Assembly: GCF_003994255.1 (NCBI RefSeq)
Contig: NZ_ML133852.1
Location: forward strand, 186,001 to 250,000
Reading direction: 5' to 3'
Origin: Brachybacterium paraconglomeratum
Lineage (GTDB): Bacteria; Actinomycetota; Actinomycetes; Actinomycetales; Dermabacteraceae
DNA: 64,000 bases
The notes beneath the pieces are model-generated. The model searched no databases, was not told the DNA's origin, and saw only the letters and a list, made by a program, of their open reading frames with translations. Made by a program: the position numbers and the translations under genes. Positions within the stretch are counted from its first letter, which is position 1. Each line of letters starts with the position of its first letter. Positions 11,684-14,646 of the stretch are shown piece after piece.

Positions 11684-11811
11684 GCGCGGGTCCGAGGCCG
11701 CGGAGCGTCGCCGACGGGCGCGTGGCGACATGAGATGGCTGTATCGCCATGTCGTGCCGCCTCGCGCCCGTCCGTGACACGTCGCGCCGCGGGGATGGCA
11801 GAGTGCTCCGC

Positions 11812-12852
11812 ATGAGCAGCACCTCCGGCCTCGAGCTGTCCGCCGCCTACCACCGGGAGGTGGTGGCGCCGCTGCTGGAGCGCCGGCTGTCGGGTCTCCC
11901 GTACGCCGCGGCGCGGCTGGGCTCGGGATCGGACGTGCTCGGGTTCGACGACGCGCAGTCGCGCGACCACGACTGGGGTCTCCGGCTCACGCTGCTCGTC
12001 GAGGACGGCGCCGCGCAGGAGGTCGACGCGCTCCTCGAGCGGGAGCTGCCGACGCAGTGGCGCGGCCATCCCGTGCGCTTCGCGACGACCTGGGAGCCGG
12101 TGGTACGCCAGCGCGTCGAGGTCGTCTCGGCCGCGGACTTCGCCGCCTCACGGGTGGGGATCGCCCCGCAGCGCCTCGACGGCGCCGCGCCGCTCGACCT
12201 GGTGGACTGGCTGCAGCTGACCGGGCAGGCGGCGCTCGAGGTGACCGCCGGGCCCGTGTTCCACGACGGCACCGGGGCGATCACCGCGATCCGGGAGCGG
12301 CTGCGCACGTACCCGGAGGACGTGCGCAGGTACGCGATCGGCGCGGACTGGACCCGCATCGGCCAGGAGCTCGCCGACGTGGGCCGGGCCGGGCTGCGCG
12401 GCGACGAGGACGGCTCCGCCGTGATCGCCGCGCGACACGTGCGCACCCTGCTCCATCTCGCCCACCTGCTGCACCGGCGCTGGGTGCCCTACGGGAAGTG
12501 GCTCGCCCGCTCGGCGGCCGCGCTGCCGGACGGCGATGCCCTGCGCCGCTCCGTGCTCGCGGTGCTGCGGGCACAGGACTGGCGCACCCGGCAGGGCGCC
12601 CTCGCCGCGCTGGTCGAGCAGATCGCCGCGCTGCAGGGACAGGTCGGCCTGCCCACCCTGGACCCCGCGACCGAGCCCTTCTTCGACCGCCCCCATGTGG
12701 GGCTGCGCGGGCTCCCGGAGCTGCTGGTCGAGGAGATCACCGACCCTGCGGTGCGCGCGCTGCGCCCCGGCATCGGCACCGCCGAGCAGATCAGCGACCA
12801 CGTGAGCGTGCTCGTCGACCCCGTGCTGCGCAGGCGGCTGGTCGGCGGGTGA
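11812..12852 (+). CDS. DUF4037 domain protein (nucleotidyltransferase-like)
   Basis: A 346-residue protein from the ATG at 11812; an upstream in-frame ATG at 11749 would add 21 residues of poor quality. The N-terminal block RLGSGSDVLGFDDAQSRDHDWG (about residues 33-54) resembles the GS-x-D nucleotidyltransferase motif and is the hallmark of DUF4037 proteins, which have an NTase fold followed by a helical domain. Substrate is not known. A 7-bp inverted repeat (cgacatg/catgtcg, about 11727-11755) lies upstream and could be an operator. Confidence 0.75.
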   Translation: MSSTSGLELSAAYHREVVAPLLERRLSGLPYAAARLGSGSDVLGFDDAQSRDHDWGLRLTLLVEDGAAQEVDALLERELPTQWRGHPVRFATTWEPVVRQRVEVVSAADFAASRVGIAPQRLDGAAPLDLVDWLQLTGQAALEVTAGPVFHDGTGAITAIRERLRTYPEDVRRYAIGADWTRIGQELADVGRAGLRGDEDGSAVIAARHVRTLLHLAHLLHRRWVPYGKWLARSAAALPDGDALRRSVLAVLRAQDWRTRQGALAALVEQIAALQGQVGLPTLDPATEPFFDRPHVGLRGLPELLVEEITDPAVRALRPGIGTAEQISDHVSVLVDPVLRRRLVGG

Positions 12853-12910
12853 GCACCCGCTGCCGCGCTCCGCCCGCACCCTCCACCGCGGGGCACCCCG
12901 GCTTCTCCGT

Positions 12911-12955
12911 CCTGCGCTGAACAGTCCTGCGCTGATCAGTCGCGGGCTGATCAGC
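12911..12955. repeat. 15-bp tandem repeat, three copies, in the clpP promoter region
   Basis: Units cctgcgctgaacagt, cctgcgctgatcagt and cgcgggctgatcagc (12911-12925, 12926-12940, 12941-12955) end 50 bp before the first clpP start. The last unit contains the palindrome gctgatcagc. The site could be a multi-operator for the adjacent regulator or a plain minisatellite. Confidence 0.65.
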
Positions 12956-13005
12956 ACGCGGCGGAGAACGACCCGGACGGGACCGCGGCGGCGCAGGCTG
13001 GGGCA

Positions 13006-13671
13006 ATGACCACGCACACCGCCCCACCGCCCCGACTCGACACCTCCGACCCCACCGCCCCGCAGCCCCTCGCCGCCCTCACCGCGACCCGGCTGCTGCA
13101 TCAGCGCGTGCTGATGCTGGACCGAGAGCTCGAGCAGGACAACGGATCGTCGCTGGCCGCCCAGCTGCTCCTGCTCGCGGCCGAGGACCCCGCCGCCGAC
13201 ATCACCCTGCTGATCAACTCGCCCGGCGGGCTGGTCCCGGCGATGCTCGCGATCGGCGATCTGATGGACCTGGTCCCCTGCGACGTGCGCACAGTCGCGC
13301 TCGGCATGGCCTACAGCGCCGGGCAGTACCTCCTCACCCAGGGCACACCCGGCAAGAGGTACGTGCTCCCGCACGGCCAGGTGCTCATGCACCAGGGCTC
13401 GGCCGGGTTCGGCGGCAGCGCCGCCGACATCGAGCTGCAGGCCGAGGACCTGCGCCGCAACCGCGACCTGCTGATCCGCCTCACCGCGGAGCGGACCGGG
13501 CAGAGCGAGGAGCGGATCGCCCGTGACTCCGAGCGCGACCGCATCTGGGACGCCGAGGGCGCCGTGGACTACGGCTTCGCCGACCACGTCGCCGCGGACC
13601 TCGCCGAGATCCTCCCGCTCGGTCCGTCCGGAGCCCGCGGCCGCGCCGCGGGGATCGGGGGCGCACGATGA
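13006..13671 (+). CDS. ClpP-family serine protease subunit, catalytic triad intact
   Basis: This 221-residue ClpP paralogue keeps the triad: Ser104 in GMAYSAGQYLL, His129 in VLMHQ and Asp174 in IARDSERD. The oligomer-core strand LLINSPGG (about residues 68-75) is present. ClpP barrels degrade proteins handed over by Clp ATPases in the cytoplasm. It overlaps the next clpP by 4 nt (ATGA), so the two subunits are made together and probably form one mixed particle. Together with the regulator downstream it resembles the Streptomyces clpP3-clpP4-popR locus rather than the essential clpP1P2 pair. The N-terminus is longer than usual by about 15 residues. Confidence 0.88.
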   Translation: MTTHTAPPPRLDTSDPTAPQPLAALTATRLLHQRVLMLDRELEQDNGSSLAAQLLLLAAEDPAADITLLINSPGGLVPAMLAIGDLMDLVPCDVRTVALGMAYSAGQYLLTQGTPGKRYVLPHGQVLMHQGSAGFGGSAADIELQAEDLRRNRDLLIRLTAERTGQSEERIARDSERDRIWDAEGAVDYGFADHVAADLAEILPLGPSGARGRAAGIGGAR

Positions 13672-14270
13672 GCAGCTACACCATCCCCTCCGTCATGGAG
13701 CGCACCCACACCGGCGCCGAGCGCAGCGCCGACGTGTTCTCCCGCCTGCTCAGCGATCGGATCGTCTACGTCGGCACCCCGATCGACGACGGCGTCGCGA
13801 ACACCGTCATCGCCCAGATCCTGCACCTGGAGAACGAGTCTGCCGACGCACCGATCCACCTCTACCTCAACTCCTCCGGCGGGGACGTGCAGGCGGTGCT
13901 CGCCATCTACGACACGCTCGCCTTCGTGCGCAGCCGGGTGGCGGTCACCTGCATCGGCCAGGTGGTCGCGGCGCCGGTGGTGCTGCTCGCGGCGGGCACG
14001 CCCGGGCTGCGCTGGGTGCTGCCCCACACCCGCGTCGTCCTCCACCCGCTCGAGGCGCAGGGACGCGGCGCGGTGCCGGACCTGATCCTCGCGACCGAGG
14101 AGGTCCAGCGACTGCGCGGAAGCCTCGAGGCCCTGCTCGCCGAGCACTCCGGACAGGACCTGCAGCGGGTGCGGCGGGACCTCGAGCGGGAGCAGGTGCT
14201 GGATGCGGAGGCGACCGTCGCCTACGGCCTCGCCGACGAGGTGCTGCTCAGGCGGCCACGAGCAGAGTGA
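13668..14270 (+). CDS. ClpP paralogue without the catalytic serine
   Basis: The 200-residue protein aligns with ClpP throughout (LYLNSSGGDVQAVLAIYD, then the LLAAGTPGLRWVLPHTRVVLH block). At the nucleophile position it reads GQVVAAPVVLLAAG: Ala101 stands where Ser is expected in GMAAS-type motifs. His126 (VVLH) and Asp171 (RRDLERE) remain. It should therefore be a non-peptidolytic ring subunit that supports the active partner made from the gene before it, as ClpR does in plastids and cyanobacteria. Its 3' end overlaps the convergent regulator by 23 bp. Confidence 0.87.
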   Translation: MSSYTIPSVMERTHTGAERSADVFSRLLSDRIVYVGTPIDDGVANTVIAQILHLENESADAPIHLYLNSSGGDVQAVLAIYDTLAFVRSRVAVTCIGQVVAAPVVLLAAGTPGLRWVLPHTRVVLHPLEAQGRGAVPDLILATEEVQRLRGSLEALLAEHSGQDLQRVRRDLEREQVLDAEATVAYGLADEVLLRRPRAE

Positions 14271-14646
14271 CGCCCGAGCCGTCGCGGGGCTCGGAGGCCG
14301 GGCCGGCGAAGGAGCGGCGATCTCCCTCGGCGGAGGAGCTTCGTCCTCCGGGGGAGGAGCGCAGCTCGAGGACCGGCGCGATGCGCCCGGTCGACGGGGC
14401 GGCGGCGGGCGCACTGTCGGCGGTGCGCAGCAGGAGCAGCGGGAGGTCGACGTCGAGCGCGCCGAGGATCGCGGCGAGCAGCTCCGAGGAGGGGTCCTTG
14501 CGGCCGCGCTCGACATCGGAGAGGTGTTGCATCGACACCCCGGCCGCGCTCGCGACCTCGGCGAGGGTGCGGTGCTGACGGTGCCTCTCGGCCCGCAGCT
14601 CCGCCCCCATCAGCTCCCGCCACAGCGGCTCGAGGTGCGTCTCCAT
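14248..14646 (-). CDS. PopR/ClgR-like XRE-family regulator
   Basis: A 132-residue protein with an XRE helix-turn-helix at about residues 17-75: LRAERHRQHRTLAEVASAAG, then VSMQHLSDVERGRKDPSSELL, the block shared by ClgR and PopR activators of clp genes. After a disordered middle it ends LLVAA. In Streptomyces PopR the two C-terminal alanines are needed for degradation by ClpP1P2, so the same feedback is likely here. It is convergent with the clpP pair. Whether it activates them is inferred from homology and position. Confidence 0.78.
   Translation of the reverse strand: METHLEPLWRELMGAELRAERHRQHRTLAEVASAAGVSMQHLSDVERGRKDPSSELLAAILGALDVDLPLLLLRTADSAPAAAPSTGRIAPVLELRSSPGGRSSSAEGDRRSFAGPASEPRDGSGVTLLVAA

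Follow-up and report, generated by a model that had tools for sequence, protein, structure and literature searches.

Brachybacterium paraconglomeratum encodes, apart from its housekeeping ClpP pair, a clpP3-clpP4 operon whose first product has a complete catalytic triad and whose second product lacks two of the three residues. We consider it probable that this operon specifies a spare ClpP core under PopR control whose two subunits share out the work, ClpP3 cutting and ClpP4 docking. With somewhat less assurance, we favour the view that PopR-controlled spare cores were repeatedly split across Actinobacteria, one ring being left only to cut and the other only to dock or gate. To the same degree we lean towards the existence of a half-dead Clp protease outside cyanobacteria, produced by many separate mutations and present also in Streptomyces, where the ClpP4 of Streptomyces fungicidicus lacks the catalytic histidine.

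The window, i.e., the whole stretch of 64,000 nucleotides that we analysed, contains two of the four ClpPs of this 3.78-Mb genome (30 contigs). The other two form the housekeeping pair on contig 1, and the window therefore holds a two-clpP operon beside a separate housekeeping pair, as is typical of PopR-type systems. A gene for a DUF4037 protein (11749-12852) lies upstream, and the operator array comes next. The locus has the following features:

12906-12965, + strand: operator array of four abutting 15-bp dyads, read as degenerate PopR boxes
13006-13671, + strand: clpP3, 221 amino acids, catalytic subunit with the triad Ser104/His129/Asp178
13668-14270, + strand: clpP4, 200 amino acids, predicted non-catalytic subunit with Ala101/His126/Glu175, keeping the docking tyrosine and the axial loop
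14248-14646, - strand: popR-like regulator, 132 amino acids, XRE helix-turn-helix protein, convergent to the operon
14251-14256, - strand: codons of the terminal Ala-Ala of the regulator, a candidate ClpXP degron

The two clpP genes overlap by 4 bp (ATGA), and the 3' end of the regulator gene shares 23 bp with clpP4. Both proteins match the Pfam CLP_protease profile (E-values of 1.3e-52 for ClpP3 and 2.4e-53 for ClpP4).

Alignment with E. coli ClpP, whose triad is Ser97, His122 and Asp171, placed the catalytic positions as follows:

13315-13317, + strand: codon AGC of the catalytic Ser104 of ClpP3, from the alignment
13390-13392, + strand: codon of the catalytic His129 of ClpP3, from the alignment
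13537-13539, + strand: codon of the catalytic Asp178 of ClpP3, from the alignment
13968-13970, + strand: codon GCG of Ala101 of ClpP4, at the nucleophile position, from the alignment and codon variation
14043-14045, + strand: codon CAC of the retained His126 of ClpP4, from the alignment
14190-14192, + strand: codon GAG of Glu175 of ClpP4, at the position of the catalytic Asp, from the alignment and codon variation

ClpP3 has the Ser-His-Asp triad of peptidase family S14; ClpP4 does not. The sequence-only reading had named Ser104, His129 and Asp174 in ClpP3. The serine and the histidine stand, but the counterpart of E. coli Asp171 is Asp178. In ClpP4 it correctly saw Ala101 in place of the nucleophile and a retained histidine, but it also took the aspartate to be kept. 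Asp171 of ClpP4 pairs with E. coli Asp167, hence four residues off the catalytic position, where ClpP4 has Glu175; HMMER alignments to solved ClpPs confirmed this register. With Ala101 and Glu175 together, ClpP4 is left without two triad residues. A different serine acting as nucleophile was excluded, as the loop reads GQVVAAPVV. The idea of a half-inactive mixed particle survives in that the sequences predict one catalytic and one non-catalytic ClpP, and we would refine it to one ring that cuts and another that docks.

We searched 35 other genomes of the genus and found ClpP4 in 18 of them, at 76–92% identity; it was not found in the other 17, some of which are incomplete. Ala101 and Glu175 are kept in all 19 Brachybacterium ClpP4s, two of which also have Arg for His. 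The codons for these residues vary (GCC in ten and GCG in nine for Ala101, GAG in 13 and GAA in six for Glu175), so the conservation of both amino acids is not due to chance. The loop of the window ClpP3 is GMAYSAG (13303-13323), with a Tyr before the catalytic Ser and an Ala in place of the Met that follows it in E. coli (AASMG). This Tyr-Ser-Ala variant was found in many accessory ClpP3s and may correspond to an altered substrate pocket.

We searched 394 genomes, sampled evenly across the class, with a ClpP4 profile and fetched the loci scoring above approximately 284.7 bits. The profile is led by the Brachybacterium ClpP4, and a choice of loci by score may favour dead ClpP4s. This class sample gave 107 ClpP4 loci from 15 families and 38 genera. 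The triad was broken in 72 of them, in 11 of the 15 families and in 24 genera, and 48 lacked the serine. Together with genus, order, plasmid and named loci, the dataset comprised 201 distinct ClpP4s. Because these additional loci had been ordered by their similarity to the Brachybacterium ClpP4, the class sample is the fairer figure. Exact duplicates were dropped before counting, together with four loci treated as housekeeping: L077, L126 and L130, where the ClpP4-like match stands beside ClpP1, and L142, which ClpP2 matched better.

Among the 201 distinct ClpP4s the triad was intact in 60 and broken, in 22 combinations, in 141. The serine was lost in 109 and retained in 92; 25 lost the histidine with the serine kept, and seven lost the aspartate alone. 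By analogy with Listeria ClpP1, these last seven may be active. Since 60 ClpP4s are intact, a dead site is permitted but not required by the system. Of 200 distinct ClpP3s, 199 had a full triad, and the remaining one had a broken reading frame. In this locus of another Brachybacterium genome (L019, 2088-3038, genome G029) clpP3 is split in two frames, by a frameshift or a sequencing error, and encodes the sole ClpP3 of the 200 without a readable Asp. Among the housekeeping controls the triad was intact in all 54 ClpP2s and in 52 of 55 ClpP1s; in the other three (L163, L166 and L172) Glu replaces the catalytic Asp. Where both pairs could be read in one genome (24 cases), 19 ClpP4s but no ClpP2 had a broken triad.

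The lost residues differ between taxa. The named Nocardia loci all have Ser to Ala in ClpP4 (21/21). Those of Nocardioides comprise 14 intact ClpP4s, six with His to Asp, and four with Ser to Gly and His to Gln; in Cellulomonas, Ala, Gly and Ser each occur once. In S. fungicidicus (L035, a plasmid record) the catalytic His is replaced by Gly. The 16 loci of family f37 all show this replacement too, one together with Asp to Glu, and by this likeness f37 may be Streptomycetaceae. Family f35 was the main source of intact ClpP4s in the class sample (24 of 34). Pairs of clpP3 and clpP4 were found on plasmid-labelled records of Streptomyces, Tsukamurella, Prescottella and Embleya (L035, L036, L037 and L038). 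Seventeen stretches were fetched in a phylum-wide search: 13 had one ClpP, nearest to ClpP2, and four had ClpP3, ClpP4 and PopR. Three of these four, all from family f80, outside the class (L296, L297 and L299), have, by eye, an Ala at the Asp position of ClpP4, and their regulators end in Ala-Ala.

To follow the losses along the phylogeny, we built a tree of 76 of the 201 ClpP4s and nine ClpP2s, from which the triad columns were removed. It implied at least eight changes between intact and broken triads (nine on a quicker tree), a minimum that holds wherever the root is placed. All nine ClpP2s fell together in a single clade, but the rooting script did not confirm them as outgroup, and we therefore did not rely on the 11–14 irreversible losses computed on the rooted tree. 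Residues changed 14, 10 and 13 times at the Ser, His and Asp positions, respectively, in this set of 85 sequences. A few reversions to the intact state are possible, as some intact sequences lie inside groups of broken ones. A second tree took 14 rows per kind of ClpP; there the ClpP3s were together on one side of a branch, and so were the ClpP4s. By score, ClpP3 was nearer to ClpP1 in 200 of 200 cases and ClpP4 nearer to ClpP2 in 201 of 201, from which we infer a doubling of the whole clpP1-clpP2 operon.

The median dN/dS of Brachybacterium clpP4 was 0.25 over the 19 genomes. The corresponding values were 0.31 (clpP3), 0.50 (regulator) and 0.10 (housekeeping clpP2, five sequences). By this measure purifying selection is acting on clpP4, and its dead form is maintained, though less tightly than ClpP2; on the same value we rejected the reading of clpP4 as a pseudogene. 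The ClpP4 frames are open across the domain, and three Brachybacterium matches just stop a few residues sooner. The AlphaFold model of ClpP4 has the whole ClpP fold (pLDDT 88.3), and its best Foldseek match is a chain of Mycobacterium tuberculosis ClpP1P2 (4u0g_B). The ClpP3 model (pLDDT 80.7) is uninformative on the N-terminus because the other alignment rows were cut there.

The features associated with ATPase docking show the mirror image of the triad. In Streptomyces hawaiiensis three pocket residues have been tested for this function: changes in ClpP2 stop degradation, whereas changes in ClpP1 do not (PMC9765437). We compared the matching positions, 60, 62 and 82 in E. coli numbering. They are Thr, Leu and Leu in the window ClpP3, and His, Tyr and Phe in ClpP4. 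Tyr62 is present in all 201 ClpP4s and in 51 of 55 housekeeping ClpP1s, but in only 71 of 200 ClpP3s (Trp in 72, Leu in 35). Position 82 is Phe or Tyr in 177 of 201 ClpP4s (His in 24), compared with Phe in 20 of 200 ClpP3s (Leu in 148). Leu114 occurs in all 201 ClpP4s, and within the accessory pair the axial loop motif is conserved in ClpP4 only. The ClpP3 pocket is degraded rather than erased, as position 62 is aromatic or His in 147 of 200 sequences. It may retain some use, because Y76S alone in S. hawaiiensis ClpP1 reduced ClpC1-driven activity (PMC9765437). Phe82 of ClpP3 was found in 19 of the 60 loci with an intact ClpP4 and in one of the 140 with a broken one, an association that may be partly due to shared ancestry. 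The loss is thus complementary, catalysis being kept by ClpP3 and the docking features by ClpP4, and suggests that one ring cuts while the other docks.

Among solved structures, ClgR is the best match of the XRE regulator (5woq, 6e-15), so a ClgR-paralogous neighbour accompanies the operon. This agrees with the earlier assignment to ClgR/PopR, although its score of 73.3 bits is below the cut-off of the NCBIfam ClgR family (NF041677, 170 bits). A better ClgR candidate lies on contig 1 (C1:363300); it scores 110.9 bits, also below 170, and ends in Gly-Ala-Ser. The Val-Ala-Ala end read from the sequence proved right, the C-terminus being Leu-Leu-Val-Ala-Ala; the last two alanines of PopR have a role described in Streptomyces (PMC9775585). 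Among the 186 loci holding a regulator it was always convergent, and it ended in Ala-Ala in 173, compared with approximately 2% expected from the 15% of Ala in the linker. We excluded that this ending is a side effect of the 23-bp overlap with clpP4, since it is present in 153 of 165 non-overlapping regulators. The regulator was absent from the stretch read in 15 of the 201 loci, five of which are cut by contig ends. In the other ten, six from Nocardia (L220, L231, L248, L253, L257 and L258) and four from family f36 (L125, L128, L136 and L140), there was no PopR gene within 2–3 kb downstream of clpP4. These ten all have a Ser-to-Ala ClpP4, and their regulator may lie elsewhere.

A degenerate form of the PopR box, TCNGY-N5-GCNGA, stands four times in a row before clpP3 as a candidate binding site:

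12906-12965, + strand: dyads TCCGTCCTGCGCTGA, ACAGTCCTGCGCTGA, TCAGTCGCGGGCTGA and TCAGCACGCGGCGGA, the best pair being at 12936-12965

Allowing at most one mismatch, the window has four matches (0.05 expected). Across the 3.78-Mb genome, the site before clpP3 is the sole perfect match of the doubled unit; a reversed control had no match at one mismatch. Four other sites match the doubled unit with one mismatch (C1:368983, C7:16364, C9:47638 and C12:60535) and may be further targets or chance. The class-wide motif TCTGC-N5-GCAGA is the core of the S. lividans PopR box, which consists of two abutting units (PMC9775585). It occurs unaltered before clpP3 in 83 of 200 loci; allowing one mismatch raises this to 153, whereas 20 single-base shuffles matched 1.7 loci on average and four at most. 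The motif is degenerate in Brachybacterium, where six of 20 upstream regions are within one mismatch of it and the window has two mismatches. The operon, the convergent regulator, the degenerate array and the Ala-Ala end together support the initial identification of a PopR-type locus.

These elements can be combined in a model. In Streptomyces, PopR is reported to be removed by ClpP1P2 and to build up once ClpP1P2 fails, which leads to production of ClpP3P4 (PMC9765437, PMC12607617). In Brachybacterium, ClpP1P2 with an ATPase would likewise normally destroy PopR through its Ala-Ala end. Were ClpP1P2 blocked or overloaded, PopR would survive, bind its boxes and turn on clpP3-clpP4. A ClpP3 heptamer would then stack on a ClpP4 heptamer, and a Clp ATPase would dock on the ClpP4 face and pass the substrate to the sites of ClpP3, half of the 14 sites being inert by design. 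We infer this division of labour from the mirror loss and from S. hawaiiensis, where the ATPases bind the ClpP2 face only and ClpP1 paired with a ClpP2 whose Ser is changed to Ala is still fully active (PMC9765437). The active site of ClpP4 could be lost because the ClpP2-like ancestral ring hardly used it.

On why many bacteria have two different ClpP rings, the spare pair seems to amount to a repeated evolutionary experiment. As its docking subunit lost the active site and its cutting subunit lost the dock, the question becomes testable in single proteins. The data also offer a possible reason for the ADEP insensitivity of ClpP3P4 (PMC12607617), in that its predicted cutting ring is without much of the pocket, and suggest an inert ClpP4 in at least some Streptomyces, whose clpP3P4 has been called a second peptidase (PMC7142297). 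In the open-access literature covered, we found no statement that an actinobacterial ClpP4 lacks catalytic residues; the primary PopR papers (Viala 2000 and 2002) and Gominet 2011 may contain one. The kind of system is known. What we did not meet in that literature is an active site lost recurrently from one subunit, matched by docking residues lost from the other.

Other arrangements of the two subunits could produce a similar locus. ClpP3 and ClpP4 might alternate within each heptamer, ClpP4 serving as a spacer or scaffold, as in the ClpP3/R rings of Synechococcus with three ClpP3 and four ClpR (PMC4673316); sequence does not fix ring composition. We regard such mixed rings as unlikely: in M. 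tuberculosis, which belongs to the same phylum, ClpP1P2 is built from a ClpP1 ring and a ClpP2 ring (PMC4673316), in S. hawaiiensis only the ClpP2 face of ClpP1P2 takes up ATPases (PMC9765437), and alternation explains less clearly why docking features and triad are split between the subunits. ClpP4 might instead enter the housekeeping ClpP1P2 as a poison subunit, reducing or redirecting its activity. A ClpP that is catalytically dead but still docks could substitute for ClpP2, and ClpP-ADEP of S. hawaiiensis pairs with ClpP2 and interferes with ClpP1 (PMC12607617). Yet, clpP3 adjoins clpP4 in 200 of 201 loci (at the exception, L110, the contig ends), 128 of the 176 loci with an assigned start show a 4-bp overlap between the two genes, and the ClpP3 triad is nearly always intact (199/200). 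S. lividans is moreover viable with either clpP1P2 or clpP3P4 (PMC9765437), and this role for ClpP4 appears quite improbable.

Least credible is the decay of clpP4 by drift in a little-used spare. The many forms of triad loss and a constraint weaker than that of clpP2 would fit it, but the dN/dS of clpP4 (0.25) is below that of clpP3 (0.31), which weakens this reading, Tyr62 and Leu114 are invariant in 201 sequences, the frames are open, and the fold is predicted intact. Escape from antibiotics is compatible with the division of labour that we prefer: a ring without serine cannot be acylated, and it may have been selected because the spare core then survives ClpP-directed antibiotics. In line with this, ClpP3P4 is insensitive to ADEP (PMC12607617), and beta-lactones kill S. 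coelicolor lacking clpP3 and clpP4 (PMC9775585). The degraded ClpP3 pocket would also fit the ADEP insensitivity. The serine is however present in ClpP3 and in 92 of 201 ClpP4s, and there is in our view only a small chance that antibiotics drove the loss.

The clpP3-clpP4/PopR system of S. lividans resembles the Brachybacterium locus in its two-ClpP operon, its ClgR-paralogous activator, the tandem 15-bp PopR boxes and the Ala-Ala end (PMC9765437, PMC9775585). It differs in that the Brachybacterium ClpP4 lacks Ser and Asp, and the S. fungicidicus one has Gly for His. The Streptomyces literature treats ClpP3P4 as a backup or second peptidase, and the missing residues go unmentioned in the parts covered. 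The housekeeping ClpP1P2 of Streptomyces and mycobacteria is also a two-subunit core, and that of S. hawaiiensis has a catalytic ring and a ring for ATPase docking (PMC9765437), but unlike in the accessory pair the triads are kept (ClpP2 54/54, ClpP1 52/55). Listeria, too, combines two ClpPs, and the catalytic Asp of its ClpP1 is changed (Asn172), yet this ClpP1 is active once paired with ClpP2 (PMC9765437, PMC4673316). The Brachybacterium ClpP4 shares with the ClpR of cyanobacteria and plastids the state of a ClpP homologue without a working triad, encoded together with an active ClpP. ClpP4s are however nearer by score to actinobacterial ClpP2 than to ClpP1 (201/201), and, in trees of ClpPs alone, their triad was lost in many separate ways.
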